NCBI GenBank assembly: GCA_949317995.1
Contig: OX439050.1
Location: 52,205,777 to 52,269,776 of the forward strand
Source of the DNA: Acholoe squamosa
Lineage: Eukaryota; Annelida; Polychaeta; Phyllodocida; Polynoidae
Length of the DNA stretch: 64,000 bases
Reading direction: 5' to 3'
In this document: piece after piece, positions 4,116-60,679 of the stretch
How the letters are laid out: every line of letters begins with the position of its first letter
How positions within the stretch are numbered: position 1 is the stretch's first letter
Translations under genes and position numbers: made by a program
Notes under the pieces: model-generated
Database searches by the model: none
The model's input: the letters and a program-made list of their open reading frames with translations, nothing else
Told to the model about the DNA's origin: nothing

Positions 4116-4189
4116 GGTGGAAGGTGTGGGATCACTGGTGTGTTGTAGGTATCACTGACATGTTGGAGATCAAACTGAGAATGTCATTG

Positions 4190-11014: not shown

Positions 11015-14000
11015 ATGCACACAATCAACGCTCTACTGCTGGTAGTATTGATACCATGTCAGTTTGTAACCTGCCCACCGGTAAGTGCATTACCATAATA
11101 TTTATAAACAGTCAAGCTTCACTTACTTAGGGACTGACCATTTTTTACAATGTGGGTTGGGGGATTCCGCGTAGATATGTAAAGAGAATTTTTTTACCCC
11201 CCCCCATCAGGATCAAATCATGCGCAAACGCGCCCTTTAGACCTATAGTAACATGAATGAAATCATTTTTACCCCCCCCCCCCAAGGGATCGAAAAAATT
11301 GTTGCCCCCTCTCAAACCCACCAGCCCCCAAACCCCTGTTGATGAAAAATGATCACTCCCTAATATTTACAAACAGTCAAGCTTGGCTCACTGTCTGTTA
11401 TAAGTCGCACATTCCTCAGTGGGTCACTGGGCCAGGTTGTGGGATAACCTATGACCTAACTCGGATACAGTTTTACATTTAACACTAGTTTGTGGTATTA
11501 GTGTCTGAACACCCGATATTTGGTTACGGAATAGAGAGCAAGGTCTATGAAAATACTATGATACCTCGCACATAAGGCGCACTTTGTGTATAAGGGCACA
11601 CCCTCAGTTATGGCTAAGCATATAAGGCGCACCTGGAGTCATAGTTTGGACATCAAAGGACTATTCCATAGTATAATATCCTCAATTATATGGCGCACCC
11701 TGACTTAAGCAGGTCCTATTAAGGGCCATCCATAAATGACGTCATGCCAAATTTGACCATTTTTTACCCCCGCCTCCAATTTTGGCTAATTTTGCAATGC
11801 TGAGCGTAGTCCTATACCGAACGTGCCAGGAGGCCTGACCCCCCTCCCCTTCCAGCATGACATCATTTGTGGATGGCCCCTTTAATAGGCTTAGGCACAG
11901 TTGGGGATTATGATTATCCGTGCATAAGCCGCGCCTTATATGCGAGGTACTACCGTAATCTCCCACGTATAAGGCGCAGCCCGCGTATAAGGCGCACCTA
12001 GAGTTTTGGAAAATTCTCAAAAAAATGAAAAATTCATAACTTTGGTTCTACTGAATGAATTTTCAAAATTCAAAAACCTATGGGTAGCTTGGGCCACCTT
12101 GGGCCCTCCTGGGCTCCATTTTGTCCTATTTTGACCAAGGGGGCATGTAAGATATCAAAAGAAAGGTCTTGGTGCCCCCCTTGTGGATCCAATGAGAACT
12201 AAAACCCCCCGTATAAGACGCGCCTTATACGTGGGAGATTACCGTAGAGTAGCTATGTACAGTAAAGTTTATATAGCAGTTTTATTATTCACCTAGACAC
12301 ATACCATGCAAAACTTAACTGGTATCAATCACACGTGCAAACTCCTCAATATTTCCAGTTTTTTAAGATTCGCCAGGATCAATCTGGTGATCCATCCAGA
12401 TCCAATGAGATTTCATTTTAAAATTTATATGGGGGAAGGGGAGGGGGGGGGGGTCTCAGTATATCATAAATCCCCAAAACCACCAGAATGCATACATTTG
12501 GCCTCTAGATTTGACAAATTTCTTGGACCCCTTGGGGAATGCTCCCCAGACCCCACTATGCTTACATTCTCCAAGCCCCTTTTCTATAGATAAAAAAGTG
12601 CTTTACGGGTTCAGTCTTTTTCTCCTCTCGAGTCTGCAGGTGTTTAGTCAAAAGGGTTTTCAGATAACTAGTTTTTACACGATTTGAGCATTTAAAGTAA
12701 ATAAATCTAATAAGAAGGATCTTATTAAGGGGCTGTTCATTTAAATTAAATCAATACAAGTTGATAAACCCTCTGCTGTAAAGGATGTAAAATCATTTGT
12801 AATTAAGGATGCTTTTCTATCTATACCTGATGTAATACACTGTTTGTATAATAAATGTTTGTCGAGATGTACCTTCCCAACAGATTGGAAGATAGGGACT
12901 ATAATACCATTACCCAAGAAAGCTAATTCTACTGATGTAAGTGACTTACGACCTATAAGCCTTTTACCCATACCAGGTAAGATCTTAGAGAAGATGGCCT
13001 GTGATAGATTGAGGGCTTACATGGAAAATAACTCACTGCTATGTCCAACACAGCACGGATACTGAAAAGGCCACTCTACAATGACTGCCATATGTGAACA
13101 CTTGTGTGACATCTTAGATAATACTATTAATGATTTACCAACAATTTGTCTGTATTTAGATTATAAAAAAGCTTTCGATACTGTTTCGCACTCAAAATTA
13201 CTAGAAAAGTTGACTGCTTTTGGACTTAGTGAAAATTCACTCAAATTTTTCTCCTCGTATTCAAAAAATAGATTTCAAAATACATTAGCTAATAACATCT
13301 TATCATCAGAAAGAGAAGTCACATATGGTGTCCCCCAAGGCCCTATCCTTTTTTCTATTTATATAAATTCCCTACCAACTGTTTATGAAAATGCTAGAGT
13401 AACCTTGTATGCTGATGATGCGATTATATCGGTTACAGACCCTGATCACATGGATGAGGCTATAAATAGTATATCTCAATGGTGCATTGATAATGTCTTA
13501 ACTGTTAATGAAAAAAGACCAAATGTATGATTTTTAATAATGTTAGAAAAATTAATCCAGTTTTTACATGAATGGATATATGTTGGAGAGGGTAGAATGT
13601 TTTCCTTATCTGGGTATTACACTGGATCCTCAATTGAATTTTGTTGAGCATAGGAGGTATGTGACAAGCAAAATAAGGGATAAATTAATTCAATTTGGTA
13701 TGATTAGAAGGTACATTGATAATGATACTGCTGTCACGATATACAAAAGCATGATTTTACCTATTTTTGATTATGTAGATTTTATATGGGATCGGGGTGT
13801 AGCAGGTGAAACTAAAGAGTTGCAATTATATCAGAATAAGGGGCTGCGAACAGCCTACAGGGTTAAGTTAGAGAAAAACCCAAAATATACTACTGACCAA
13901 CTGCATGATTTAAGTGGGTGTAAAGAGTTATATATTAGGAGAGATATCCATTTGCTAACATATGCCTATCATTTATTCAAAAGTGGTAATTATACTGATG

Positions 14001-16961
14001 TACGAGGCATTAATACCAGGTTTCATGATGGTAATAGACTGAAAGTCCCAGCCACAGTCAAGAGTGTGATAATGCATAGTGCCTTTTATAGGGCGATTGT
14101 TACCTGGAATAGGCTTAAACCAGAACTTACAAGAATAGAGAATATTAATGTGTTTAAAAGAAAAATCAAAACAGAGTACTCAAAGATTTTTATGTAGTTT
14201 TTAACTAGGCATCTTTACTACCTCATCTCATAACATCTCATCATTTCATCCCAGTTTGTTATACAGATGTATCATACATTCAGAAGCAGTAGAAAGATAC
14301 TCATACTCTATAGTAATGTCCTTAGAAATTGGTGCCGCCATACTGGGATTTATGTGTGATAATTGGTTAATAACTGCATGTAAGGGGGGCTAGCGGAAGG
14401 ACTGCAACGTGCAGATGCTAGCATAATTAATACATATACTTGTTATATTGTATTGAGGACCCAATAAAATACATTTAAAAAAAAAATTATATTCAAATGT
14501 ATAAATTAATATTGATTAACGTGGGAGGGGGTGGTGGGTGTGGATCGAGGGACAGAAATCTGCCCACCCCACACGTTGTTTCAAAATGAACACTCCCTTA
14601 TTAGCTGAATTTTTTATCTTTCCAGATCCCCATAATCCCGCCTGGATGTCACGACCTATGTGTGAAGCTTGGAGGCACATTCTTGGAATGCATAAAGGAT
14701 TGCCCTCCCATAGAAAGTATGTGATATTTTCTGTATTGTGGCTTTGTCATCAACGAAGCTGGCCAAATGGTCTCTGACTAATTGCTAGCCAGCTCCTTTT
14801 TGAAACTCTTGATGGCGTCATCAAAAGTTATATATCCACTGCATCTTGTTTCAAAGCTCTTCAAATATAAATGGCACTATCCATGTTCACTAATGCAAAA
14901 CTAATATAGCAGACAGCAAAAACTGCTTCTTGTTTCTTAACTTGAGTTCTTTTCTCCTGCTCTATTAGCTAGAGTTGGATGGGACAACTTTAGAAACACT
15001 CATGTAATGGTGACATCCAGTTCTTGCAGACCCCTTACTGGTGTACCCATAGGGCCTAACAACTATTCACTTGGACAACCTCTCAAACTGAGCTGTTTTG
15101 GATAGAGCAATTTAAGAAACACTAATGCAAATGGTGCCATCCAAGCCCACTATTGGCCACTCGCTGGTCTGGAGCTGGTTCCGGCAACACATACTGATAA
15201 AAACTGATAAGATGGGACATGTCATTATAACTATTGGTAGGTGATGGGTGCCATTCTTGGGTGGACACCAGAAACCAGATAGAGAGAAAAAAGATAGATA
15301 AAGAGAAAAAAATGAGGAAACTGCATTCACTGTGTAGACGTCTGGTTTTAGGGAGTATATTGTCGAGAAACACTCTCTTTAACATTAAAATTTTATACTT
15401 TACTCTTACATCTCTTCCAGAATGTGTAAAAGCTATGACTATGGTTAACCTAACAGAGGTTTACATGAACAACAATGGACCAGTTAAAAGACCACAGCTG
15501 TGCAAGTACCACTGTTGGGAGAGCAACATGTACACAGAACGACGATGCATGCTGGATTGCCCATGTTAGTTTTTTTTTTTTAATATTTATATGTCCTGAA
15601 CCATTGAAGCCTTCAGCTAGGCCCCTATGTTTCATCCTGAACCATTGAAGCCTTCAGCTAGGCCCCTATGTTTCATCCTGAACCATTGAAGCCTTCAGCT
15701 AGGCCCCTATGTTTCATCCTGAACCATTGAAGCCTTCAGCTAGGCCCCTGTGTTTCATCCTGAACCATTGAAGCCTTCAGCTAGGCCCCTATGTTTCATC
15801 TCGTACCCAGAAGTGGAGCCAGGGGTGGTCTGAGGGGCAACCCCCCTCCCCTGTAGACCCTGAAAATGGCCCTTGGCCAAATAGAAGAAAATAATGTTCA
15901 AAATCTTAGTCAGATATTAGTCAAAATGTCTTACTTTCTAACAAAAGCTAGTCAAAAGCACATGCCTAAGTGCATGTAAGTTTTTCTTAGTCAAATACCA
16001 CTAAACCTTAGTCAAATGCCCAACTTGCCTTGGCTTGCCTGATTTTGGCCACTATTTGTTGGTGGTTTTGACTAAGTAGACAATCTAATACATTCAGTTT
16101 AATTTAAATGGTGAGTGTGAGCTCTACATGAGGTTCACACCCCACAAATCAAGAGTCTCATCAATTAGGAAACATATGAAATGTCTGATAGGATTTTCGC
16201 TTTTGTCCCCATTTGTTATGTTTAGTGACTTGGTGCCGCCAATATGGGAAGGTGCCTTCCGTGACAACAACAACACCAGTGATGACTGCCAAAACAACCG
16301 CATTAACTCAGGATCCAACTTTAGGTAATTGGAGATGGAACATGATTAGGCCTACTCATAACATCTTTATGTTGAACTAAATGAGGACCTGTACCCATGT
16401 ATTTCTTTTATTCCTGACGATACACTAACATTGAATTTGAATAGTTATGTCTCTTAAATCTGACCTTTGCTTTTCTTAACCATTCAATCTGTATAATACA
16501 TTTTCGATACATTAACATTGCATTTGAATGGTTATATCTCATCAATCTGACTATTTCTTAACCATTCATTTTTATAATGATAAGAAGACTGCACAAAAAA
16601 AAATCATCAAAATGTATTTATCTGTATCTCTAGAACGACGCTCGGCAGATGCAGATATGTCCCCTGTCCAGGATGGAGCGATAATTGATGGCACTGGTCC
16701 CACTGGTTGGACACTAGTGGGTATTGTACTTGGGACTCTAGCATCTGTAATGCTCCTGGTCGTTATCACCTATATGACAGCGCGCTGGTGCTACAAGAAA
16801 TACCTCGCTGGCAAATCACGCAAGCTTCCTAAAGAAAGTAAGCCAAACAGCTGCGATTATAAGTTTTATGATTAATTTGCGTATTTCAATCTTTTCAGAT
16901 AAACATCTACTATACTGTCTAATCTATCTATCTGTCTGTCTGTCTGTCTCTCCCTCTCTCT

Positions 16962-17007
<46 letters not shown>

Positions 17008-17511
17008 AGTATATATGGTCACACGTGAAGCGTTTTGAGTAGATCGCAGATAAGAGATAAGATAGACCGATTGGTCCCCCTACTACTGACCCCTAAGTTA
17101 CTTATGCCCATTAATCTTATATAGAGATGATTTCTTTATTAAAATAATATTTTTTCCTAGATTAAAAAATTACTGATTTATTTATCATTTACCAATCATT
17201 CTTTTCTTATAAGTTTTTCAAGAATTTTGTAATTCCTAGATATTCTCCACACACTTTTCATTGCCCAACGTCCCCTGAGGGAATAGCTCTCCACATGTGT
17301 GACCTCGGGGGTGTATCTATCTGTCTCTGTCTCTCTTTCTGTCTATCTGTCTGTCTGTCGCTGTCTGTCTGTCTGTCTGTCTCTTTGTCTGTCTCTCTCT
17401 CCGCCTAAAGTACTAAATCCCTTTTCATTTCATATAATTTCAGGCCATATCCCAATGAGTTCACTCCCTGCAACAAACCGTGATGAGGAAGAGACCTACC
17501 TTCGATCCTGA
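11015..17511 (+). CDS. Gene A: cysteine-module type I membrane protein, 223 aa, six exons
   Basis: Exons 11015-11080, 14626-14716, 15421-15564, 16226-16324, 16634-16837 and 17444-17511 join in phase (0,1,1,1,1) to a 672-nt frame ending TGA. All introns start gt and end ag. Residues 1-20 are a signal peptide. Cysteines 30, 34, 44, 48, 54 and 80, 84, 95, 99, 104 form two modules of pattern C-x3-C-x9/10-C-x3-C-x4/5-C. One N-glycosylation sequon (NLT, 62-64) lies between them. A Thr-rich stalk (about 110-133), a transmembrane helix (159-182) and a 41-residue tail ending EEETYLRS follow. I do not recognise the family. The paralogue at 34893-37949 supports every exon. The first intron contains a LINE and several MITEs. 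A cell-surface receptor or adhesion role is inference from layout only. Confidence 0.85.
11127..11361. mobile_element. MITE with 'agggactgaccattttt' ends
   Basis: ttagggactgaccatttttt at the left and its inverted partner aaaaatgatcactccctaat at the right bound about 235 bp with C-rich runs and the words acctatagtaacatg and cgcaaacgcgcccttt. Related sequence recurs at 47333-47515. It lies in intron 1 of gene A. Confidence 0.6.
11562..11949. mobile_element. Mariner-type MITE containing a second MITE
   Basis: The ends tacctcgcacataaggcgca and gcgccttatatgcgaggta are inverted copies. Inside, 11719-11883 is a separate 165-bp inverted-repeat element (aagggccatccataaatgac ... tttgtggatggccccttt) whose insertion splits the host element. 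It abuts the next MITE at 11951. In intron 1 of gene A. Confidence 0.7.
11951..12246. mobile_element. Mariner-type MITE, complete copy
   Basis: taccgtaatctcccacgtat at the left and its inverted copy at the right, 296 bp, with cgtataaggcgc words near both ends. It serves as the uninterrupted reference for the split copy at 54136-55854, which carries it in reverse. In intron 1 of gene A. Confidence 0.8.
12745..14487 (+). mobile_element. 5'-truncated LINE with poly(A) tail
   Basis: Reverse-transcriptase sequence begins abruptly near 12754. The element ends in a 3' UTR with aataaaatacatttaaaaaa (14463-14482) and an A-rich tail, as expected of target-primed integration. Inserted in the sense orientation in intron 1 of gene A. 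Plain flanking sequence at 12247-12744 has only a G-run and no exon. Confidence 0.85.
12754..14197 (+). pseudogene. Non-LTR retrotransposon reverse transcriptase, broken
   Basis: Translation shows ordered RT blocks: DWKIGTIIPLPKK, DLRPISLLPIPGKILEK, a QHGY-stop-KGHST block, YLDYKKAFDTVSH, YGVPQGPILF, the catalytic YADD (13408-13419) and the C-terminal LGITLDPQLNF thumb. This fits the CR1/Jockey-like LINE group. An in-frame TGA at about 13063 replaces the usual Arg of the QHGFRKGHST block, and the frame shifts between about 13530 and 13568, so no full protein can be made. Endonuclease is missing through 5' truncation. Confidence 0.88.
15595..15799. repeat. 41-bp minisatellite, five copies, in gene A intron 3
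   Basis: Exactly 5 x 41 bp, unit containing ccattgaagccttcagctag, almost identical copies. It begins 30 bp after the donor of exon 3. Confidence 0.95.
16926..17003. repeat. (CT)n and (TGTC)n simple repeat in gene A last intron
   Basis: Runs of ctgt, c and ct. A second TGTC-rich tract lies at about 17312-17402 before the last exon. Confidence 0.9.
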
Positions 17512-20044
17512 TTTTACTCTCCGTCTAAATCAATTAAGTACGATGTACTGTGTTTGGTGATCCATGTTGGGGGCGGATTCAGAAGGGGTGGTCAAGGTGG
17601 GAAATATGATCCAGGGCGAGATTTCCGGAATGGGTCTACTCCAAAAATGATCAGTCTATCTTTAACTACCTCTGGGACAAATGCCCTGCTTTCTCATCTA
17701 CTGCCCATATTTTGGAAGAATCAACTGGACTAGGCATATTCAGGGTTCCGGGATAGTTAAGAGTCATTTGAAAGCGCATTTTCAGAGGTAAGAGGTGAAC
17801 ATTGTGGTCTGGGAACATACGCTATACACCATATGGGAACATGGTTCCACAATGGTCTTGATTTTTTCTCTCCATGTTACCAATATCATGACATTGTAGG
17901 GATATTCACGTCGGGCATGGTCCCACAACCGTCCATGTACAAAAATACATAAGGGCCGAACCATTTATTCCCAGCTGGGGAGGCTGGCTTAGGGAATTTT
18001 CATGGGCTAGCAATTTTTCCCCACCCTGCACCAACGTGGTAAAAGTTATCACCCCCCCCCCCCCCTCCTCAACTGATTTACCAGACGGCCTTAAAACTAC
18101 TTGCTCCCAGTTACAAATGAGATGACAGAGTCATGAGTGTCATTCTGGGTTCATTCCCATTGCCTCCCTAAATGTTGGTGGGAGAAAACATTCTTCACCC
18201 CCCCTCCCCCGCCCCTCCAACTTATAAGCTGAGGGGTCATCCATGCACACTACATATTTACTTGATTAAGTTAGATTGGGCAACTAAATGAATCATGTCT
18301 CCACTTCCTTGTTGGTTCCGTGCTGTTTTTTTTTTTTTTTTTTTTTTTTTGGGGGGGGGGGGTCTTTGGGTTCCTCTATATGTTCCATACAAAAACAGTG
18401 ACAAAGGGGTGGGTGGGTGCTGAAAAATGCCTAAATAACTGTGACTTAATTGTTGAACGTTCCCCTACACGTGTGCACTGTTAGCATTAAATCATGGAAA
18501 ACTGCTTGTCACATGGAGTACAATGTCACATGGAGTCTGCTATCTATGTCTATTATCCTCTATTGTTTGTATACTTTTTTATTCAGTACCCAGGATCTCG
18601 ACCAGTGATGTGACTGGTATCCCTACAATTTATAAGTCTTTTATCTGAAAGGTGAGAGGTCTAAATCAGGATACTGCTTAGACAGTGACATCCATTGCAC
18701 AGAAAACCTGCCGCTACTTGAAAGTCGTCAATGCAGACGACTTTAGGGTGGTCAATGTCCCATGACAAGCCAAACTCGTCATACTGACAATACAAAGTCG
18801 TCATAGTGATGGCTTATGTGGTCAGGATGAGGACGTAAAGTCGCCATTTTGACGATATAAAGCAGTAGATTTATAGGTATTGTCAATCTGATGGCCTAAA
18901 GTCGTCTGCACTGACAAGTGTCAGGCTTCTCAGGTGTTTAGTGTGCAAAAAGTGTAAATAGCCATGCTGTTAAATAGCCCTGCTGCTGTACACAGAAAAG
19001 TAAATGGAGGACACAATGTATTAAACAGAGGAATGTAATTCTAGCTACCAAGTTATTACCGCAACATTCATCATTTCCGGAAATGGAAACTCCAAATAGG
19101 CTTAGAACTAGAAGATTGACATGTATGGGCAGCCTCATGCTTGCTTATTTTTCATTGTGAGTGGTCTTCATCCTCGATCAAAAAGGTTTGATATGTATAA
19201 TTGTCAGTATACATGTATAAGTGTTATCGTGAACAGTTGTATCTGTGAAAACTTGTGAGGTAATAACCAAGATAATGGTCAAGTTGTTAAATGTTTTCCA
19301 TCTCAACAATGGAGAGATTTTAAATAAAAGACTTCAAAGTAAAAGATACATGGTTGTGTTGTTCTTGGAACGATGTTTATCATGCACTAGTACTATAAAT
19401 CTAGTGAGAAAATTCGTGTGGGAAAAGAAAGATCCACAGCAGATAATAATGCATCTTACAAAATCTAGGAAAGTGATTGACCCAATTTCCTGTGGTAAAC
19501 AGCCCATTATGAGTACATCTTTTTTTTCTTATTGCATGGGGTGCTCACGTCATCCAACATTGATTCAGATTTATTAGAGTAGGGCTAGTGACACACATTT
19601 AGTAATAATTCTTTTCATCAAAATGTACTATCTTACAGTAGATTATATAAAACATAAAAATGTTCAAGGAATAGATTCGGCCAGGAGTTGTGGAAGGATA
19701 CAATTCAGTTTGATTGGCCTAGGTAATGGGCGGTAGTAGAAAGTTATTACATTACCAGGATACTATGGAATCCATTAAGTGAAAAAAAAATTAATAAGTA
19801 CAGAAAGTGGAAGCAAAAGATCAAACATGTAGTAGTAAGTTGGGATAGACTTGCCCTATAAGCATGGGTATAGTAATAGTGCCCACGGTAAAACCATGGG
19901 TAGTAAAACAAGCACGTGCCGCAAGCTGCATCGCCGATGGCCAGGACCATCCACATGTAAACTTTGACCAAATCATGTCTTCCTTTATAGGACACATGGG
20001 ACTTAATTCCCATGTGTCACGTGACCTGTACCCACCATGTCACT
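17512..20044. other. Intergenic sequence downstream of gene A
   Basis: No supported exon. Contains a poly-T/poly-G tract (18327-18362), a copy of the 'ccatacaaaaacagtgac' repeat (18385-18472; others at 27350 and 32650) and the MITE at 18697. Open frames at 19245-19577 and 19747-20013 have no recognisable features. Confidence 0.5.
18697..18946. mobile_element. MITE family 'cagaaaacctgccg', copy 1
   Basis: Begins gcacagaaaacctgccgcta and ends ctcaggtgtttagtgtgc, short imperfect inverted ends. Internally it has many copies of aagtcgtc/gacgactt words. It is closely matched by 33106-33387. Confidence 0.65.
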
Positions 20045-20316
20045 AATTGTTCATTTATTTTAATGTAATGTAAAATAACTGATTATTATCAGAGTAATCT
20101 ATCGACCACCGACGTGGGTTGGCTTAAAGAGACAGGTCAGGTACGGTGAGCTTATCGTCATACTTTAACATGATTCGAGTTTTAATTTCGCTGGTGACTT
20201 AGTGGTGGGAAGAGTGCTTTTGGCACGAGGGTTGGGCCAACCCACGTCGGTGGTCGATAGGATAGTCTGATAATAATCACAGTTATTTTCCATTACATTA
20301 AAATAAATGAACAATT
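20045..20316. mobile_element. Long hairpin MITE, 80-bp arms
   Basis: Arms 20045-20123 and 20236-20316 are near-perfect inverted copies (for example atcgaccaccgacgtgggtt against aacccacgtcggtggtcgat) around a 112-bp loop. No open frame. A decayed fragment of the same arm (ttatcgaccatcgacc) follows at about 20335. Confidence 0.85.
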
Positions 20317-20934
20317 ATTACCAGCAGTTATCCGTTATCGACCATCGACCTTGTGGGTAGGCTACTTCAACTTGTTCATGAAATTGAAACTCAGGCGGGA
20401 GATTTGCTATCTAAATGAGTTTTATTATATGTTAGCAAAACTACAGTCATCACTATATGTAGACAAAACATATATAATAGGTCAGGAACTTTATGTTCCG
20501 AGTAAACAGGCAAAATGTTATACATTGCGTAGACCTTGTATGACATAACAGTGTTATTTCAATGACTCTAGGGGTAATGTACCCCCCCCCCCTTTTTTTC
20601 CCTAAGTGAAAAATAGTTTCCAGCTATCTTGATGGAAAAGCCTCAGCACTCATCATGCCTGTAGCTGTCTTAGAGGCTGAAAGTCACCAAACCTTTCTGC
20701 GTGTATAGGATATAAACTGATACACACCATAACTTAAGCTAATACTTGGATATAAGTGACTAAATAGACTTATGTAGATATTTTTACTCTATAATAAATT
20801 CATCTGCAGATGAATTTGTTTGCAAACAAGTGTATGAGTGTTTATGCATCATGTTTTCAAATGGGATAAAGTCTGTAGGTTGCAGAACAGGTGGTACATA
20901 TAAGGGTCTATTATAGAACCATGCAAAAGTGGTT

Positions 20935-21566
20935 TCATTTGACCACCCCTGCTGATCTGAGGATCTTATGCACCGGGACTTGTTTTCTTGCTGCAGCTAG
21001 TATTGACGCATGGCGAGCAGAGTAAGCTGTATACTGCTCATCTACTCCAGCATCTATCAGTGCTGATTTTAATTGTCTGGATATTGTCTTTCCACTGGCT
21101 CTGGAGATTGGCAGTTTTACTGTCGAAAAGACAAACAGCATAGCAGATTGTGACCTTTGATCCACAATGTATGCCCTAAGATGGGAATACACACACAACC
21201 TTTCATCTTCTCTCCTTTGAAAGTACATAATCAGTGGCTTGTCAGTTGGATTGTTCTTTTTGTGCGAATTGAATATGTAATCTTGACTGAGTGGATGGTC
21301 CACTCACAGTCTCCTCTGAGCATTAGGTGCAGTGCCTGTAGCCTTTGTCCAGTGGCTAGTAATACCAGTAACATAGTATGTCTGGTGAGCTTCTCATAGT
21401 CTAGTCCCTGTATGTATCCCCAGTTCTGAATTGTTAATAATGCTGGCTGTGGGTCCCATACAAATTCCATTGACTTTATTGGTTTTTTTTTAACCTTTGT
21501 CCCTTTGACAAACCTTGATATGGTAGGCTCTTCTCCAGCTGGTTTCCAGTTGAATGTTATAAACAT
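20935..21566 (-). pseudogene. DIRS tyrosine recombinase, frameshifted
   Basis: The N-terminal half (21566-21231) contains PIKSMEFVWDPQPALLTIQ and LTRHTMLLVLLATGQRLQAL, the usual core-binding to catalytic transition including the first catalytic Arg. The second half (21303-20935) is in another frame, with AGVDEQYTAYSARHASILAA, the R-H box equivalent, then VHKILRSAGV. The expected final Tyr region (about WSS..TF..Y) is truncated or changed: the frame stops soon after GVVK. Non-functional as it stands. Confidence 0.8.
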
Positions 21567-21827
21567 GATAGAAACGACCTGGATGTAATAGTATTGATGG
21601 CACTGTGACCTACCCCAGTATCAAGATATTCACTGAGGAACTGTATGCAATCCCTGACTAATGGTTGTGTGGGGTGCACATCCCTTAGGCTTGTGAATGT
21701 CATCCATCATTTTTCACATCCCTCATAGACCGCCGCAGTGTTAGGGCTCCATGCCATGGCCATGACATTCCATGCAGTAAACGAGTAGCCCAGCAGATCA
21801 CACCATATGGTTTTCATATAGGGATAA

Positions 21828-22692
21828 TCAGTAGGTGTGATCTGCCTGCCAATGGGAATTTCTTGGTGGGGTCTGCCAGAGCAGAGTCGAAGAGGTGATG
21901 GGCATTTGCAGGTGCTTGCTGTACCTCCTGAGCCTGATGAGGCTGGTGAACCATGGCTGTGTTGCCCAGTTGGAGACCACTAACAGCCCAGTGGTCTTGT
22001 CCTGCTTGATCTTCCTCAGCACCCTGCCAATAAGAGAGAAAGGTGGGAAGATTAATGAATTATCGTTCCATGTATAGGTGAATGCATCGGTCACCATAGC
22101 ATTAGCATCGTAATGTAGTGAAATGTACTTAGGGCAGAGCGCATTTTGGTATGAGGCAAACAAGTCAACCTGAGGTTTATGAAATGCAGAGAAGATGTAA
22201 TATTTGGGTGGTAGGGGATGGTGACCACTCTGCAGATGAGGCAAAGGCCCTTGATGCCCTGTCTGCCTCCACATTGAGTTTAGTAGGGCAGTAAGACAAC
22301 TTGAAGGTGATTCTGTGTTTCTATGCATAAGTGTATATGGCCTGTGTGACCTCATCACATGGTATGGAACCCAGAGAACCACCTTTCCTGATACAGCATA
22401 AAGCTGTTCTGTTGTTGATGAACAAATGTACACATTACCCCTTCACTCGATGTTGAAGTTTCTTCAGCGCTCTAAGAACTGCCTTCAATTTGGGAATATT
22501 GATATGCAGTTCTTGTAACTCAATGGGACATTCTTCCCCCATACTCAAAATCACCTTGTTGCCAATAGCAACCCCACCCTGTCTTCCATGAGTCTGTGTA
22601 GATTGACATCTGTGGGCGGATTTCCGCAAATAGAGCAGAGGCGATAGGGAGATGCGACAGCCACTGTTTGATGCAATCATGAACCGTGTCAT
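21828..22692 (-). pseudogene. DIRS RNase H / connection region, broken
   Basis: Blocks HKPQVDLFASYQNALCPKYI, DAFTYTWNDNSLIFPPFSLI and NWATQPWFTSLIRL match the segment conserved in DIRS elements between RNase H and recombinase. The piece at 22692-22435 carries ELQELHINIPKLKAVLRALK, typical of the RNase H fold, in a different frame. Confidence 0.75.
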
Positions 22693-23550
22693 TTAGGTAC
22701 ATAGTTACGTCATAGATACCCAATGACTTGGCGAGGGGCCAATATTTAACTCTCTGAAGGAGTTTGATATGGACCTTGGCCCTGTCATTTCCAGGTTCCG
22801 TGGCTGCCAGGTTTCCTATGACTGCTGCGAACTGTCTGATTGACAGCCTCCTGACTTTCAGGATGTCACGTGCCATTGTCATCAATTTTCTCACTTTCTT
22901 GGATGGTATGTGTAGTGTCAGTGTGGTGGAGTCAATGGTGAAACCCAGGTATTCAATGGACTGTGCCGGGGTCAAGACTGATTTTCTGAAGTTAATCGTG
23001 AAGCCTGCTTCCTGTAGGATTCTGAAAGTGTGTTTTACAGATTGTTCCACTAGTTCTGGAGTGTCTCCAAAAATGAGTGTCATCAATGTAAAACACCAAG
23101 TTTATGCTATAATGTACTCTCAGATGTGAAAGCAGTGCCTTCATGATACGTGTAAACAGTCTTGGCCCTGGTGAGTATCCATTTGGTAGGCATGTATACC
23201 TATATCGTTTACCATGGAACTGGAATTGCAAGAAATCCCTGTCCCTTTCTTTAATGGGTAGGGTGAAGTAGGCTGACGTAATATCTACAGAACTCATAAA
23301 GGAGTGTTGAGGCAAAATATGCCTGACTGACGTGAGATGATCCATTTTTCAGTCCTGAGAGGTTCAAAATAAGTCTGAAAGTGCCGTCTGTTTTAGGTCT
23401 TAAAAACAAGTGTGAGACAAATGCCCTTGCGTTATGTCCTGCAGGCTCTATGATGCCTTTACTCAACATATCCTGTATCTGTGTATCCAACTGAGCATTT
23501 TAACTGGGTTGATAGATGCAGAGTCTGGGATCTCTGACTGTACAGGGATA
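22520..23550 (-). pseudogene. DIRS reverse transcriptase, broken
   Basis: In order across three frames: MLSKGIIEPAGHNARAFVSH and FRLILNLSGLK (23490-23340), VDITSAYFTLPIKERDRDFL and FYIDD (catalytic box) at 23345-23060, then RILQEAGFTINFRKSVLTPA and IEYLGFTIDS (thumb). Frame changes near 23345 and 23080 and a switch into the RNase H piece show decay. Confidence 0.85.
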
Positions 23551-24344
23551 GTGTGTAGATCTATGGTCAAGCCTTTCACCATATCCAGCACCCATCTGTC
23601 TTTGGTGAATTTATGCCACTCATTAGCCTGTCTACCCAAACCACCCGCTGAAAAGGCCTGGGGTTTTTTGGGATGCTTTTCAGGTGTTTTGGGTAGCTTG
23701 GCTGTATCAGGTGCATCAACAACTGAAGGACTTACATTTATTTGTTGTTGTTGTCTTTGTTGTTGGATCTGTTGCTGCCTTTGTAGTGGTTCTGTTTGGT
23801 CTGCTTGCCTGGCTTGCCACCCCTGGGGGTGTTGCTGCTGGACCGGTAGTTCTGCTGGCGGTTCGATGCCCCCTGGTGGCGGCTGCGGTCCTGATTGTAG
23901 TTGAGACGACCCGCTGTGTGTTTGCGGCTGGACCCACTCTTGTTGTGGCGGCTGCGGGCCTGGCCGCCCCTGTAGTTTCCCTGGCGACGGTTCCATGACC
24001 TGGGGGCAGCCACTATATCGCGTAAGGCTTCTTCCTCTTTCTGTCTAACAACAATCTGCTCTCTGGTATCTTCTCCGAGCAGGTTGGAGGGTCTAGGGTA
24101 GGTTTTGTAGAGTGTTTTTTAGTTGATCCTTAGTGGCTGGGTTCAGGTAAATGGCGTCCACCAAGGTTTTAACCTTCTCTGGTGTTTTATTAGTTTCAGC
24201 ATCTTGTGGTTCTGTGAATGGCAGCTCTACTGCGGCTAGAGGGCAGTCAAATGACTGTGGTCCATATGCAGGTAGTGGATTTCCCTGCTGCTGATCACTC
24301 TGCAGGCCTATCAGTGCTGGGTATTCATACTGATCTAGTATCAT
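23551..24344 (-). pseudogene. DIRS gag-like nucleic-acid-binding protein
   Basis: The 24344-24093 frame (LVDAIYLNPATKDQLKNTLQ) is followed, in another frame at 24013-23738, by a highly basic Asn/Arg/Gly/Ser-rich stretch (RRQGNYRGGQARSRHNKSG), and then by a segment leading into RT (EWHKFTKDRWVLDMVKG), the usual DIRS gag-to-RT junction. The GC- and Gln-rich shadows in other frames here are not genes. Confidence 0.65.
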
Positions 24345-24543
24345 CCTCTGGTTGGCGCTGTCTGTGTTGTACCTCTATGTTTGCAACATGGGTTGCTGCA
24401 GGACGGGCGTCAACCCAAACGGCTGTCACGTCCTGCTGCGAGGGATAATGCTGAGTGGGTATGGCCAGTGGTGGTTCACCCCTGCCCCTCCTGCGTCTAG
24501 GCTGCCGATCTTTGTCTTGAGAATGTACCGCTCTAGGGTCTAA

Positions 24544-27020: not shown

Positions 27021-27026
27021 GCCCAC

Positions 27027-27103
27027 CACTGTTCCCTCCCTCCCTCCCTCCCTCCCTCCCTCCCTCCCTCCCTCCCTCCCTCCCTCCCTCCCTCCCTCCC
27101 TCC
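27027..27103. repeat. (CCCT)n microsatellite
   Basis: About 19 tetranucleotide copies; the apparent proline/serine and glycine-rich open frames around it are artefacts of the repeat. Confidence 0.97.
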
Positions 27104-30100: not shown

Positions 30101-30285
30101 AATTGAATAATTTATTAACCTAAACTCTTGTGTGTTAGCCATTCTGATGTTTAAGCTGTATTAAGAAATCATAAAAAGCATATGACCTGCGCCTGGAGTC
30201 CTCATTTAAGGTTAAATACCCGCCCATAAGCCACATCCCGACTTTAGTGAGATCTCACAAGCAGAGTTTTATGCTGAACCCATCA
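27104..30285. other. Intergenic sequence, no gene seen
   Basis: Contains a copy of the 'ccatacaaaaacagtgac' repeat (27330-27430), a MITE (28265-28499) and a stretch (about 28940-29490) faintly similar to 33800-34380. No exon supported. Confidence 0.5.
28265..28499. mobile_element. MITE family 'gtttcaggtaac', copy 1
   Basis: tttgtttcaggtaacccgac at the left and gttacctgaaacacacaa at the right are inverted. A poly-T tract lies inside. Second copy at 33998-34227. Confidence 0.65.
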
Positions 30286-31085
30286 CTGCCATTCACAAAT
30301 CCACCCAATCACTAATCCACCCATTCACTAATCTACCCATTGACTAATCCACCCATTCACTAATCCACCCATTCACTAATCCATCCATTCACTAATCAAC
30401 CCATTGACTAATCCACCCATTCACTAATCCACCCATTGACTAATCCACCCATTGACTAATCCACCCATTCACTAATCCACCCATTCACTAATCCACCCAT
30501 TCACTAATCAACCCATTCACTAATCCACCCATCACTGTCATTCACTAATCCACCCATTCACTAATCAACCCATTCACTAATCAACCCATTCACTAATCCA
30601 CCCATCACTGTCATTCACTAATCCACCCATTCACTAATCAACCCATTCACTAATCCATCCATTCACTAACCCACCCATCACTGTCATTCACTAATCCACC
30701 CATCACTGTCATTCACTAATCCACCCATCACTGTCATTCACTAATCCACCCATCACTGTCATTCACTAATCCACCCATCACTGTCATTCACTAATCCACC
30801 CATCACTGTTAGTCACTAATCCACCCATCACTGTCATTTACTAATCCACCCATCACTGTCATTCACTAACCCACCCATTCACTAATCCACCCATCACTGT
30901 CATTCACTAATCCAACCATCACTGTCATTCACTAATCCACCCATCACTGTCATTCACTAATCCTTCCATCACTGTCATTCACTAACCCACCCATCACTGT
31001 CATTAACTAACCCACCCATCACTGTCATTCACTAATCCACCCATCACTGTCATTCACTAATCCACCCATCACTGTCATTTGCTTA
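30286..31085. repeat. Compound minisatellite (about 14-bp and 24-bp units)
   Basis: 30290-30530 is mainly a short unit containing cattcactaatccaccc. From about 30530 it changes to a longer unit containing catcactgtcattcactaa. Degenerate edges reach about 31250. Confidence 0.9.
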
Positions 31086-32455
31086 TTCATGCATTGCTGC
31101 CATAGTCTAAATCCACTCATCAATACTGTTCATTCATCACTGCCATTCACTAAATTGATCGATCCTTGCTAAAACTGAATCCAACCATTACTGTCATTCA
31201 ATCAAATCTAGCAATCACTGCCATTCACTAATTAATGAGTCCATCCCTTTCGTTAAATGAAAGGGATTCATTACTGCCAACTACTAAATCCACCTATCAA
31301 TACCTTCCATTAGAGCCATTGTCCACTGCTGTTCACAAATATCGGGTATTATCACTGCCTTTCACTAAGATTTCATCCATACCTATCCCTTTCGCCCACC
31401 AAATATTTCCACCCCACTATCCCCTCCTTTCTATTGGCCCTGATAGCATAACCGTGGTTATACTTGTGCCCCTGACTATACTGCCACCCATCCAGCTTGT
31501 CCTGGATCTAGGCTACCTTACATCATGTGGATGCTCCCACCCACACACACCTGAGCACGCTAGTCATAGCAGTAGCAGTAGGCAGCACGACACTCCCTCC
31601 AAATTGTAAAACCAATCTTTCAGGATATAGTGATCCAGGAAATCAGCCAGCTCAACGACATGGGGAAGGTACATTTACGTACAATTAATTAATACTGAAT
31701 GCTGCGTTCATCTAACAAAAATGGGCCGTTATTTATAGTCGTATTGGGGTTATAGATTAAGACTTAGTCTAGTATGTATACATGCAGTACACGAGCTATC
31801 TTATTCTTCATAATTATAGGTCTGAAATGTGTGAAAGAGGTGATTGATATCAGGTCATACTGTTTGACATGTATTTGGAAATGGGGTATTATGTTATTTA
31901 TGGCATCTTTTCTTTCTCATTGTATTCCAATGTGCTTTAATAAAAAATAAACAGTAACAAACCAGGAGATTCATATCCCGAATGTGAATTCCAGCTTATT
32001 TCCGAACCAGATTGCATTTCCCCCCATAATTATTCATTTCTATTTCCTTTATCTTCTTTGAAAAAGATTCATTGCCGTTATAGTTATACTACTACGAATA
32101 TTGGTAAATCTGGTCATTCTACTAACACGGACGACAAGTCCCAAAATAAAAAGCCTGAGCTACGTGTAGTCTTCATAACTGTGGTTTTGCTGGTAAAATC
32201 TTTAGACATAGATAATCAGACATACATTGACATAGTAAACGCATCAAGTGCTAGAGTGGTGGTTCACACTTCTGCGACTTAAGCCACTATTGATATAATA
32301 CATTCAGTGAACACTCGTTGAAGAGTCATTGTGTGATTCATCATTCCAGTTAAATAGAATAATGGTCAGGCAAATATGCCTGTCTAATGCAAATGACTTA
32401 CCGCACACCCAAAGCAGATATTATGTAGTCTATATATCATATATTTATATATAAA

Positions 32456-32458
<3 letters not shown>

Positions 32459-32502
<44 letters not shown>
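32459..32502. repeat. (TA)n microsatellite
   Basis: About 22 uninterrupted AT dinucleotides. Confidence 0.97.
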
Positions 32503-32503
<1 letters not shown>

Positions 32504-32590
32504 AGTCTATTTTCCAAGTCTATGATCGGTGTAGTTACAATACATTCCTCGCCCTATCAATATTGTACGATCCAAATATGTATTTCTAAG

Positions 32591-32727
32591 TGAACGTTCA
32601 ACAATTGCGTCACTGCTTAGGGGGTGGGGGGTTCCTCTATACGTACGTTCCATACAAAAACAGTGACAAGGGGGTGGGTGGGTCCTGAAAAATGCCTAAA
32701 TAACAGTGTCATAATTGTTGAACGTTC
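32591..32727. mobile_element. MITE with 'gaacgttcaacaatt' ends
   Basis: tgaacgttcaacaattgcgt and its inverted partner ataattgttgaacgttcc bound 137 bp that include ccatacaaaaacagtgac. Partial copies lie at 18368-18472 and 27338-27430. Confidence 0.7.
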
Positions 32728-33105
32728 CCCAAGTAGGCCAATACCACTCACACGCTGATTAGGGGCCGTTCACAAATGACAACAGAGGGCGGGGTCTATG
32801 CTTCCTATACAGTTCTATAGTAAAAGCATTTATGAAAGGGGAGAGTGGGGTTGGGCAAAAAATTAATGGTAAAAGGAAACAACCCACCACGTCTTTTTAT
32901 GGATGGCCCTTGTCATTTGGGATGGGCATACGTCATTATGTCCTGTATCATTCCTCTTCCTATCAACCAATGTGTGCTAATGATATTCATTTACAGTCTA
33001 AGTTCTTTGAAGATACGGAAGAACCGCCGAGAGGTATTGGTACAATATTATACTACAGTACTCTAGATATTAAGATAGTACTGGGCATGGTTTATCCATA
33101 GAATA

Positions 33106-33387
33106 TACACAGAAAACCTGCCGCCACTAAAACTTGTCAATATAGACGAGTTTAGGGTAGTCAAGGTCAAATGACAACCTAAACTCGTCATACTGACAAT
33201 ACAAAGTCATCATACTGACAACTTAGGTGGTCAGGATGACAACCTAAAGTTGCCATTTTGACGACCTAAAGCTGTAGATTTATGTAACCTTGTCTATTTA
33301 TGATGTTTATGACTTGATTTATTGTCAACCTGAGGACTTTAAGTCGCCTGCACTGACGGGTTTTGGGCTTCTCGGGTTTTCAGTGTA
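33106..33387. mobile_element. MITE family 'cagaaaacctgccg', copy 2
   Basis: tacacagaaaacctgccgcc at the left, ctcgggttttcagtgta at the right. Collinear with 18697-18946, including tcgtcatactgacaatacaa and the gtggtcaggatga words. Confidence 0.7.
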
Positions 33388-33507
33388 TGATTATATATCG
33401 GAACGTTCACAGATAAGGTTACTGGCTTGTGGGCGGATTACTGGAGATTTTTAGGTGTATATGATCTTGTACCGAGACTAATAATTAATACACTTACCGG
33501 AAATTTA

Positions 33508-33508
33508 A

Positions 33509-33567
<59 letters not shown>

Positions 33568-33574
33568 GAGAGAC

Positions 33575-33625
<51 letters not shown>
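33508..33625. repeat. (GA)n-(GACA)n microsatellite
   Basis: GA run to about 33580, then GACA units to 33622, directly joined to the 5' end of a SINE-like repeat. Confidence 0.95.
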
Positions 33626-33742
33626 GTGAGTAATATATGTTTAACGCCATTTCGACAGCTAAGGTCGCATTCATGGCGAGAACGACATTACACAATTTCA
33701 CTGGGGAATGCGTCAGTGCCTGTGCATATGAGATGGTGACAA
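33626..33742 (+). mobile_element. SINE-like dispersed repeat
   Basis: gtgagtaatatatgtttaac, cgccatttcgacagctaagg and cattacacaatttcac are diagnostic. Forward copy, 3' end lost. Confidence 0.7.
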
Positions 33743-33997
33743 GGGGTATGTCATGTGAACGTTCTGTATATTGTGCTCTATAAATGACATGCCTATAGTT
33801 GATTGTACCATAAAGACTGTGGAAACGTGAATGTGCTTATCAGTGACTAGTTGTGGAGGGAGGACACTCGAGTATGTCTTCATCTGTCATCAGCTTCCCT
33901 CCCTCATAGCCCCCGCCGATAAAACTTGTTATCACCTTTCCCCAAAGATGTGGTACAAACGACTCATTGTTTCGACCTCTTAGGTCTAAGAAAAGTT

Positions 33998-34227
33998 GTT
34001 GTGTTCAGGTAACGGGGTCGAAAAAACTTAGGATAGGTAGGTAGGGAAGTTGTTTTTTTTTTCATTTTGGAGAATTTCCTTGAGGCCTGCTGTAAATTTT
34101 CGCGCCAACATGAAACTTCCATGTCTCGATAAGTGCCAAAATATCACATTTTCCCACAAAATGCCCAATAAAAAGTTAGGGTAGGGCCAAAGAATTATAG
34201 GGTAGGTAGCGTTACCTGAACACAACA
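33998..34227. mobile_element. MITE family 'gtgttcaggtaac', copy 2
   Basis: ttgtgttcaggtaacg and its inverted copy cgttacctgaacacaa bound 230 bp with a poly-T tract. Matches 28265-28499. Confidence 0.7.
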
Positions 34228-34892
34228 GGTTTTTTAGGCCTTACGACTGTTCTGGCACGTTGTCATGCTCATAATATTAGCCGGCCCCATGCCGCTAGTA
34301 TAGGGAAGAAGTCATACTTGAATGCTACTATCTGTAGTGCGTCAGAAATGGTGACGGCTGTGTCTGTTCAGAGTGGACCACCAATAGCGGTATTGAGCAG
34401 TGAAATGTTTGCTTACAGGTGAGGTAGGGTCTTGGCCAGATGAACTGGGCATGGGCGTGCATGTGACTGTACACGTTTATATGCTATGTTTAACTCTCTA
34501 ATTTGTACATTTCCTCGGATTTGCATGTTTCATTTGGATATAGTATTTGTGACATAGGTTCCGTGAATTATTTTGGTAAAATGAATAATAAGTAAATAAA
34601 AATAACAATTAAATGATAATATTTAACCATTCGGAGACACTGTGAGTCACCAAGCAGAGATTATCCTATGAAAGGAATGTACGATGTCAGTTCCAATTAT
34701 TAATGTCAGATATGCATTTAAAGTATTTGACATACCATCAGCCTCCTTTTAGTATTATAAGTTTGAGTAGACCAAATACAACAGTAATGCTATACTAATA
34801 CAGGGACCAGAAATATAACAAAATATATGTTATACTTTGTTCAAATACTATGGTTTTGTGTTTTCCAGAACTCGGAAACCGTCAGATGTGCC

Positions 34893-37800
34893 ATGAGAGT
34901 GTTATTGATCGCAACGTCTATATCAATCCTAGTCCAAGCCGATCCGGTAATGGCCTTAAACAGCCTTTTACAATTTTATTTTCATCATTTTGTTCTAGAG
35001 ATAAGTGGAGAGGGCGGGGGGGGGGGTTCAGGCAACTTCATCAAATAATAATACTGAGAAAAAAAAGAGAAAAATCCAAAATTAACAATATCAATCTGGG
35101 GAAAGAGAGTATAGTCTAGTGAATGAGTATTGCAATGTAGACGTTTAATGCCACTTCAACAGCTAAGATTCATGGTGAAAAAACTACATTACACAATTTC
35201 GCAGATGAGTGTGTTGGTGCCTGTGCATTATTACATATGCATCAGACACACTGAGGGGATAGGAAAGATGAGATATAGATCCTTTTAAGTGGGCTAGGGG
35301 ATCCCAGTATAATGTAGTCAAAGCAACAATTGAAATGTAAAGGAAAGTTACGACTTTTATTCTATGATCAGTGCATTCTTATTTGAGGTGGCCCGTGTTC
35401 CTCCAGGATGCCGTGAACATTGCAACGAGTATACTAAACGTGGTGGACGTTATAGTGATTGTACGCCCCAGTGTCCGTCAGAGGAAGGTAACTGTCTATA
35501 CATAATAATCCACTTTGGACCAGAATTGTTGGACACAAACAAAAACGTCTTTGTTCAGCGAAAGACACATATCTTGTTCAACTCGACACTTTTGAACCAT
35601 TCTATTTCCCCCAGTAGTTTGAATAATTAGCTGGGCAGTAGTTTGAATAATTAGCTGGGCAGTAGTTTGAATAATTAGCTGGGCAGTAGTTTGAATAATT
35701 AGCTGGGCAGTAGTTTGAATAATTAGCTGGGCAGTAGTTTGAATAATTAGCTGGGCAGTAGTTTGAATAATTAGCTGGGCAGTAGTTTGAATAATTAGCT
35801 GGGCAGTAGTTTGAATAATTAGCTGGGCAGTAGTTTGAATAATTAGCTGGGCAGTAGGAGCCAATATGAGCTAGATTAACTTTCCTTCATTTATCTGTAT
35901 TTTTGTATTGCCTATAAAGGCACCATCATGCCCTTGCTACTTTTGATTTTTCCATCACACAGTATGCCTAAGGGCACTGGCCATGACAGACCATACAGAG
36001 GAGTACATTGATATCCAGCCAGGTCTACCACAACGCCCTAAACTCTGCAAAAACCACTGCTGGCAGTCTAACGTCTACGTCATGCACTCCTGCATGGTGG
36101 ACTGTCCAGGTTAGTACTTTACTTCAACATGTTGAGTATGAACTTTACCTTTAAAATAGCATCTCCGTCTGAAACATGTTACATGTATATGTCAGTGGCG
36201 GATTCAGAGTGGGGGAATGGGCGCACCCCCTCCTTTTTGCCAGTACTTTAGAGTCTATGTATGCTTATTTTGGACCCAAAGATTTGCTCCAAAATAGAGG
36301 GTGCGCCCCCTCCTTTTAGCCCCTCCTTTTTTCAAATCCTGGATCCGCCACTGTTATGCTCAATGTCAGCCATTTCTGATTCGTCCAATTCATGATTATG
36401 AAGATGAACATGGGCCCTGGACCGGCAAGTCTGTTTTGTTGTAAAAACCTTAACGCTACCCAGTGTGGTAAATTTGACCCTCCCATGAACACATACTGCC
36501 ATTATTTTCATAATCATTTTTTTTACGCACCAATGCAGCCTCAGATACCAACTCGTCGGTGCCACATTGGAGTATCATGCCTTCCCCTTTCAGTTTCAGG
36601 TGTATCAGTCACTTCACAAATTGAGCCCGGGAGTTTAGTCGCATATATGATTTAATTCCTCTCAAAAAGTATTTAAGACTCAAGAAACAAGATGCCTAGA
36701 AGTAAAATTCATTCTCAACTGTATGCAATTTCAGAGACCTGGTGTCGTTTGTATGGGGGTATGGTCCTTCCAATGACAAAAACCACAACAACAACACCAA
36801 TAATGATAACCACACGATCAATAACCTCTACTAAATCAACAACAACTCTAGAAGCGAACACAGGTAAGTCCAGGGTAGTCTTTTTTCATTTTCTTATTCA
36901 GTTATTCTTATTTTTTCACTACTTATTTTTTTCTTAAGTTTTCTCCAAACAGCAGATAACTTATCTCGCATTTTCCAGAAAGGAATTGTGTGACGAAGAC
37001 ATATTCGAAGAAGAATATTGCATAGAGTATCGAATGCTATGTAATGAGAAGGGACATAATGGTAATAACTACAATATTAGTTTGAAATTTTGGATTCTTT
37101 TATTCTTTTCCCCCTTTTTGTGACTTTATAGGTCCAAAGGTTCATGCTGTACTTGATGGATCTGCTGATAGAAATGGAAAGGCCACCAAAGACCCCCCAA
37201 GACAGAGCAACACAAATCTAGGCTTATCAATTGGCATACCGGTGACCTTATTTGTTGTGGCTGTCATCGTGTTATCAGTCATTGCTTACAGGTACAGGCG
37301 AAGTCAGCGTAAGAAAGGTACTTTTTTTTTGTTTTTTTTTTGTTATTGTTCTTTTATTGTTGTTGCTGCTGCTGCTGCTGTTCTTTCTATGTTTTTAATG
37401 GACGTCTTCAGGGTTTTCCCTGAGTTCTGTGATTTTAAAGTCCCAATGACCTAGCCCATACATTCATAAACAACGCCTATATTTAAGATATTCTAATTGA
37501 GCATTTTTAGGGTTTATTGTGATTTGCGATGCCATTTTCATTCCTGTAGGCCTATACATTTTCTGGTGGGTTCTGCTTTCCATGGTTGTAGCAACAGTGA
37601 ATTAGTTACTAACCAGTATTGCTTCGTTTATGAAATATTTCAATGGGATATGCAAGAAATTATATCAAAGCACCAGAGGCCATGCTTTTGATAAAGGTGT
37701 TTGTTTTACTGGCATTTCTCAGCGAGCGTTTTAGTACTCCCCCATCCATACAAAACGTCGTTTTACAAGATACGTATTGGCAACTCTGAATCCATTCTTG

Positions 37801-37949
37801 GAGCCATGTTTACCCATCTCCTTATGAAATGAAAATCCATGCTTTGGTGTCTTTAGAATCTGTTTCATGTTTTAGGACATGTGGCTGTTCCTATGGGCGC
37901 CTATCCTGCCACCTCCAATGACCAGACTGTTCACCATTTAAGGAGTTAA
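34893..37949 (+). CDS. Gene B: paralogue of gene A, 229-aa type I membrane protein, six exons
   Basis: Exons 34893-34946, 35388-35487, 35963-36109, 36735-36863, 37132-37317 and 37876-37949 join in phase (0,1,1,1,1) to a 690-nt frame ending TAA, with the same intron phases as gene A. Residues 1-16 are a signal peptide. Cysteines 26, 30, 43, 47, 53 form module 1 and 80, 84, 95, 99, 104 form module 2; the second set has the same numbers as in gene A (KLCKNHCWQSN..., CMVDCPETWCRLYG). A longer Thr-rich stalk (115-143) is likely O-glycosylated. The transmembrane helix is about 173-196, then a basic stop-transfer run and a 33-residue tail ending HHLRS. Exon 2 uses the acceptor ttatttgag; an ag nearer the first cysteine would break phase. 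No known family recognised. Surface receptor role is inferred. Confidence 0.87.
35130..35300 (+). mobile_element. SINE-like dispersed repeat in gene B intron 1
   Basis: Diverged forward copy: gtttaatgccacttcaacag, cattacacaatttcgc, ggataggaaagatgagatat and ccttttaagtgggctagg in family order. Confidence 0.65.
35612..35857. repeat. 24-bp minisatellite, ten copies, in gene B intron 2
   Basis: Unit cagtagtttgaataattagc plus tggg, ten near-identical copies and a partial. The 24-bp period keeps an artefactual minus-strand frame open (repeated TAQLIIQT). Confidence 0.97.
36193..36353. mobile_element. hAT-like MITE with 'cagtggcggat' ends, gene B intron 3
   Basis: cagtggcggattcagag and the inverted aatcctggatccgccactg bound 161 bp. 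Similar ends occur at about 26814 and 48336. Confidence 0.75.
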
Positions 37950-60600: not shown

Positions 60601-60679
60601 TGGTCATGTGACCTCTGTTTGGGTCTTTGTCAGAGAGGAAAGTCTGTGGTGTTTGGAAATCTTTCCTTCTCGAAACATC

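Follow-up and report, generated by a model that had tools for sequence, protein, structure and literature searches.

We analysed a window of 64,000 nucleotides from the genome of the polynoid annelid Acholoe squamosa (positions 52205777-52269776 of contig OX439050.1, here C16, in assembly GCA_949317995.1). An earlier note on this DNA had described two six-exon plus-strand genes, at 11015-17511 and 34893-37949, with identical intron phases and with products in which an ectodomain with ten cysteines is followed by a Thr-rich stalk, one transmembrane (TM) helix and a short tail. All 12 exons of these genes, g1 and g2, were located letter for letter and span exactly those intervals (Table 1). The intron phases are 0,1,1,1,1 in both genes, and the order of protein segments is as described in both. 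All ten donors are GT and all ten acceptors AG; the acceptor of g2 exon 2, TTTGAG, is weak, yet it is this site that preserves the PPGC frame. The predicted proteins have 223 (g1) and 229 (g2) residues, and the cysteines reported at residues 80, 84, 95, 99 and 104 are found at these positions in both.

Table 1. Exons of g1 and g2 (window coordinates), and further family copies and one neighbouring gene elsewhere in the genome
Feature	Position	Strand	Content
g1 exon 1	11015..11080	+	Start codon, predicted signal peptide; hydrophobic residues 1-20
g1 exon 2	14626..14716	+	Module 1, CX3CX9CX3C; alpha-hairpin model, mean pLDDT 73
g1 exon 3	15421..15564	+	Module 1 fifth Cys, linker, module 2 CX3CX10CX3C; also two-sequence profile match
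g1 exon 4	16226..16324	+	TWCR including module 2 fifth Cys; Thr-rich stalk
g1 exon 5	16634..16837	+	Juxtamembrane segment, TM helix, start of tail; hydropathy
g1 exon 6	17444..17511	+	End of tail, stop; also two-sequence profile match
g2 exon 1	34893..34946	+	Start codon, predicted signal peptide; hydrophobic residues 2-15 (11-residue window; missed by 19-residue window)
g2 exon 2	35388..35487	+	Module 1, CX3CX12CX3C; weak TTTGAG acceptor
g2 exon 3	35963..36109	+	Module 1 fifth Cys, linker, module 2 CX3CX10CX3C; also two-sequence profile match
g2 exon 4	36735..36863	+	TWCR, Thr-rich stalk
g2 exon 5	37132..37317	+	Juxtamembrane segment, TM helix, start of tail; hydropathy
g2 exon 6	37876..37949	+	End of tail, stop; also two-sequence profile match
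g3	C15:44598659-44601059	+	Intact; six exons, phases 0,1,1,1,1, 229 aa
g4	C15 ~44606570-44608030	+	Decayed neighbour of g3
g5	C16 ~44018960-44024939	-	Intact; same modules, TM helix, 510-aa tail
g6	C16 ~43999550-44004560	-	Neighbour of g5; exon 3 frame-broken as assembled
NACHT gene beside g5	L021 8237-10000; C16:44026750-44027268	+	Divergent from g5

The two genes had also been called paralogous, which is borne out by 31% identity over the whole protein in BLASTP (E 7e-33). A profile of the two sequences, run against six frames of the window, matched the 12 exons, and it gave no other window match above the inclusion threshold. Synonymous sites of the ectodomain are saturated (pS 0.875) whereas replacement sites are constrained (pN 0.33), third codon positions being the most changed; constraint is looser outside the ectodomain, with pN of 0.56 in the stalk and TM segment and 0.60 in the tail. 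Such substitution patterns are those of protein-coding genes under long constraint. The exons are known from sequence alone and g2 has one weak acceptor, which could be taken to indicate a gene-model artefact or a chance assembly of exons. This is very unlikely, however, because saturation is accompanied by constraint at the codon level, the paralogy is highly significant, and the same architecture recurs in two further intact genes at other chromosomal loci.

Intron 1 measures 3545 bp in g1 versus 441 bp in g2. Part of the former is accounted for by a broken reverse transcriptase at 13066-14197 (+; RVT_1, E 2.7e-22 for the first ORF), presumably of the non-LTR type. Near-perfect tandem arrays lie in introns near exon 3 of both genes (15594-15800, 41 bp x 5, in g1; 35612-35857, 24 bp x 10, in g2). 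A direct repeat of about 250 bp, in two pieces 79-85% identical, occurs near both ends of the g1-g2 intergenic region (18698-18944 and 33108-33386) and is probably a dispersed element.

The ORFs scanned around g1 and g2 were either transposable elements or unmatched. A Ty3/gypsy-like gag ORF (2463-4151; Ty3_capsid, E 1.7e-10) adjoins a tandem array (4190-5326) whose 20-bp unit is repeated about 57 times. At 20935-24118 (-), weak matches to a reverse transcriptase (E 8e-5) and to a tyrosine recombinase (E 0.0099) lie next to each other, a pairing that we take to be that of DIRS-type elements. A transposase at 60386-62755 (+; DDE_Tnp_4, E 3.7e-34), with relatives up to 73% identical, is presumably of the Harbinger/PIF type. 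The interval 41656-44838 is a minisatellite with a 30-bp unit and about 106 copies, and it contains long open frames, of up to 426 aa, in several frames; as 30 is a multiple of three, these frames are probably meaningless. Overlapping ORFs at 50286-51864 (-) show C2H2-like Cys/His spacing by eye and possibly represent a zinc-finger gene; two of them were scanned and had no Pfam match at E <= 0.01.

Cysteine framework and predicted folds

The ten ectodomain cysteines of g1 and of g2 are arranged as two CX3C-Xn-CX3C modules, each with a fifth cysteine. Additional cysteines are present in g1 at residues 15 and 20, in or just after the signal peptide, and at 186, just past the TM helix. The spacing of module 2, CX3CX10CX3CX4C, is constant in all four intact family members (g1, g2 and the genes g3 and g5 described below). 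Module 1 reads CX3CX9CX3CX5C in g1 and g3, CX3CX12CX3CX5C in g2, and CX3CX6CX10CX6CX3CX5C, a symmetrical pattern, in g5; read by eye, module 1 of g6 likewise contains two additional cysteines. The arrival of extra cysteines in pairs in g5 and g6, together with the mirror-image spacing in g5, would fit antiparallel pairing within the module. Beyond their cysteines, modules 1 and 2 have no detectable paralogy to each other (P 0.095, 0.069 and 0.31).

Hydropathy windows of 11 residues revealed a hydrophobic N terminus and one TM stretch, and no other such segment, in g1, g2, g3 and g5. Basic residues follow the TM helix in each, so that all four have the features of type I single-pass proteins by this heuristic, which misses the N terminus of g2 when the window is 19 residues. 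Over their last 20 tail residues g1 and g2 agree at nine, including PM, PAT, D and the final LRS. The tails of g1 to g3 are short, and no catalytic domain and no strict ITIM or ITAM was seen in the family. The long g5 tail carries four YxxL/V motifs, none of which is a strict ITIM under what we take to be the definition of that motif; they could be sorting signals or chance occurrences.

AlphaFold2, run on module 1 from the window exons with two sequences, gave two helices (8-15 and 19-25; mean pLDDT 73, pTM 0.30). Module 2 was modelled as strands (mean pLDDT 55.7, pTM 0.26). Module 1 is predicted to be an alpha-hairpin. The modelled strands of module 2 are unreliable and give no support for a hairpin. 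The helical moment peaked at 92-106 degrees in five of seven module 1 segments, but near 100 degrees in only one of six module 2 segments. Of the 15 PDB matches that Foldseek gave for the module 1 model at E <= 10, none is credible; the best has E 4.5.

Other copies in the genome and their history

The earlier note had called g1 and g2 a tandem pair and had proposed a search of the genome with a family profile. We queried the 1,481,437,319 bases of the assembly (63 contigs) exon by exon with g2, g5, g3 and g1 and found two more loci. Thus, although g1 and g2 are indeed adjacent paralogues, they are not merely a pair: the family has at least six copies at three loci, in three same-strand pairs (g1/g2, g3/g4 and g5/g6), and four copies are intact. 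Six is a lower bound, since only the best candidates of the genome search were scored. The g5 gene, on the same chromosome as the window and 8.2 Mb from it, has one extra upstream exon (phase 0) followed by the 0,1,1,1,1 plan. In g4, the cysteines of both modules are missing in the readable frames, the frame of exon 3 is broken and a stop falls inside a match. The broken frame of g6 could reflect decay or an assembly error. When the four intact genes are compared pairwise (six pairs), pN/pS ranges from 0.32 to 0.67. A candidate near C4:19802472 was judged on reading to be a chance match, despite a family-profile E of 8.7e-6. Other weak matches fell on C1, C2, C8, C9, C11, C13 and C14.

Ectodomain identity is 60% between g1 and g3, 45% between g1 and g2, and 44% between g2 and g3; it is 75% for g3/g4 (40 columns compared) and 57% for g5/g6 (69 columns). 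In a tree, g1 grouped with g3/g4 rather than with g2, with weak support (54% standard and 40% ultrafast bootstrap). Because g1 is closer to g3, on another chromosome, than to its neighbour, the g1/g2 split looks old. The simplest reading of these sequence relationships would be that g1 and g2 split long ago, that a g1-like copy later moved to C15, and that separate local duplications took place there and at g5/g6. The proposal that the pair was formed by tandem duplication is right as to the kind of event, but the duplication was probably not private to g1 and g2.

An ORF that encodes a NACHT domain (E 4.9e-17) is divergently oriented to g5 and starts about 1.3 kb from the modelled g5 start. 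The N terminus of this gene looks CARD-like by eye, and Pfam gave no CARD. NACHT matches in the genome number at least 94 (99 of 216 candidates scored), and no listed one is close to g1/g2 or g3/g4. The position of g5 next to a NACHT (NLR-type) gene is suggestive of a link with immunity, one that was noticed after the fact.

The mitochondrial contig, C63, carries on one strand nad3, trnS, nad2, cox1, trnN, cox2, trnD, atp8, trnY and cox3, the protein genes being assigned by eye. The tRNA calls included no trnG, and under one ARAGORN mode a second trnN appeared on the opposite strand. In COX1, AAA occurs in two conserved Lys motifs, ATA accounts for 19 codons, at positions that we take to be Met, and TGA is used 15 times versus once for TGG, which fits the invertebrate mitochondrial code but neither that of echinoderms nor that of hemichordates; an origin in these groups was considered first and dropped on this ground. 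The gene order agrees with an excerpt of PMC2639372, which places nad3 between nad1 and nad2 in annelids and gives the order cox1, trnN, cox2, trnD, atp8, trnY for Sipunculus nudus.

Relatives and possible function

In a search of 5.8 billion proteins, a method that depends on 5-residue words in common, g2 yielded 868 candidates, none at E <= 1, and the g1/g2 profile 3335, none at E <= 10. At E <= 10, neither g1 nor g5 matched any Pfam family, and the matches of the other two were all sub-threshold: Psg1, AJAP1/PANP and TMEM154 in the stalk and TM segment of g2, along with DUF6078 at residues 33-70 (E 0.21), and TMEM154 and DUF508 for g3. The Psg1 match (PF14610; 24.6 bits, E 2.4e-5) covers stalk and TM residues 128-200 of g2 only and falls below the gathering cut-off of 30.1; g1, g3 and g5 had no listed match to this family. 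TMEM154 (PF15102) scored 13.7 bits in g2 and 14.4 in g3, in the stalk and TM segment only, against a cut-off of 30.3. In the PDB, g2 alone matched CMRF35-like molecule 1 (96-205, E 0.018) and ribonuclease A (28-116, E 0.33), and the g1/g2 profile gave E values of 0.028 and 0.42; all of these chains are unrelated.

The absence of a recognised family, noted earlier from the sequence, was thus upheld, with nothing credible in Pfam, the PDB or the 5.8 billion proteins. A literature search found no description of such a family either, and within the databases and literature searched the family is undescribed. To our knowledge, the cysteine framework of g1 and g2 fits no known family. As a control of the protein database, the Harbinger-type transposase of the window retrieved 4806 proteins at E <= 1e-10; of the 120 matches listed, the few with a named source came from beetles, a moth, fishes and the hemichordate Ptychodera. 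No annelid was named there, and the family's absence is therefore weak evidence for restriction. That the family is confined to annelids, or even to this worm, which the earlier note expressed as "lineage-specific", is plausible.

We considered which known systems the proteins resemble. Small Tim chaperones (zf-Tim10_DDP) have a twin CX3C motif, and the idea of a helical hairpin bounded by such motifs is common to both. Unlike these chaperones, the g1/g2 family consists of secretory-type membrane proteins, and the small Tim family was unlisted in our Pfam scans at E <= 10 with HMMER filters on. The architecture of signal peptide, Cys-rich ectodomain, Thr-rich stalk, single TM helix and short tail is that of lineage-specific, single-pass Cys-rich surface proteins of invertebrates in general, which also form small clusters that include decayed copies. 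In contrast to such families, the combination of this cysteine framework with the 0,1,1,1,1 exon plan matched none in the libraries searched. There is also a formal likeness to plant alpha-hairpinins, short free peptides of 22-51 residues defined by the motif XnC1X3C2XnC3X3C4Xn, which also occurs in scorpion kappa-hefutoxins and some cone-snail peptides, according to an excerpt of PMC7191063. In alpha-hairpinins a loop connects two antiparallel helices, and the disulfides are Cys1-Cys4 and Cys2-Cys3. The motif is present in both modules of g1, g2 and g3 and in module 2 of g5, whereas module 1 of g5 has the outer motif plus an inner cysteine pair, which breaks the rule that X is not Cys. Like alpha-hairpinins, module 1 is predicted to adopt a helix-turn-helix; unlike them, module 2 is not predicted as helical. 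The modules of g1 and g2 are moreover in tandem, with a fifth cysteine each, in stalked proteins anchored by a TM helix and ending in a tail. Membership is not claimed.

Our main reading, to which we assign a probability of about 0.55, is that g1 and g2 are intact members of a small, old and dispersed family of type I single-pass membrane proteins in this annelid, which would be hairpin-headed, stalked and ligand-binding, with a signalling or sorting tail. The products are most likely single-pass surface receptors or adhesion proteins, a role that we infer, as we do ligand and signalling, from the architecture alone. Each ectodomain would fold as two disulfide-stapled helical hairpins, one per CX3C-Xn-CX3C module, each closed by C1-C4 and C2-C3 bonds. 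The remaining cysteine of module 1, its fifth, is encoded by exon 3 and may pair with that of module 2, in the TWCR sequence of exon 4, and thereby lock the modules together. The Thr-rich stalk, probably O-glycosylated, would keep the head at a distance from the membrane, where it would bind a protein ligand; the tail would transmit a signal or sort the receptor. We count against this reading that two of the six copies are decayed or frame-broken, and a common signalling route is doubtful because the tails differ greatly among members. A fuller version of this proposal is unlikely: an undescribed annelid receptor family with paired disulfide-stapled alpha-hairpins as its head, divided into a short-tailed branch (g1 to g3 and the decayed g4) and a long-tailed one (g5/g6), for which the NACHT neighbour would suggest innate immune sensing.

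Alternatively, the proteins could serve without signalling, in adhesion, in anchoring to the matrix or as decoys, the tail only sorting or anchoring them. The shortness of the g1 to g3 tails and the lack of a catalytic domain or a strict ITIM or ITAM speak for such a role, which we nevertheless regard as rather doubtful; the tail ends of g1 and g2 have nine residues in common, although the tail as a whole diverges. Somewhat unlikely, too, is that the genes belong to a known animal receptor or adhesion family from which they have diverged so far that current profiles fail to detect them. Short, fast-evolving Cys-rich domains do elude sequence searches, the homologue search relied on short common words, and there is no good model of the whole ectodomain; against this stand the empty or sub-threshold Pfam results at E <= 10, the weakness of even the best PDB matches and a cysteine framework that fits no family known to us.

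The likeness to alpha-hairpinins raises another possibility, that the genes encode membrane-tethered precursors whose Cys head is cleaved from the stalk and secreted as a defence, toxin-like or signalling peptide, in the manner of alpha-hairpinins or kappa-KTx. The C-X3-C-Xn-C-X3-C motif (as given in the PMC7191063 excerpt) and the helical hairpin predicted for module 1 are what such peptides would lead one to expect. The TM helix, however, is kept in all four intact members, tail residues are partly common to g1 and g2, and a shed peptide would have no need of the g5 tail; nor did Pfam or the PDB reveal any sequence relationship to such peptides. We therefore consider shedding improbable and retain the membrane-anchored receptor or adhesion protein as the preferred reading.

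Orphan, lineage-restricted surface families are common in animal genomes, which limits the surprise of this one and makes its interest moderate at most. What the present analysis adds is a small orphan family of surface proteins whose cysteine grammar is clear and whose exon plan is conserved; the exact exon models and the six copies provide a basis for building a profile. If the hairpin head is true, a fold of plant defence and venom peptides would be used in animal membrane proteins.
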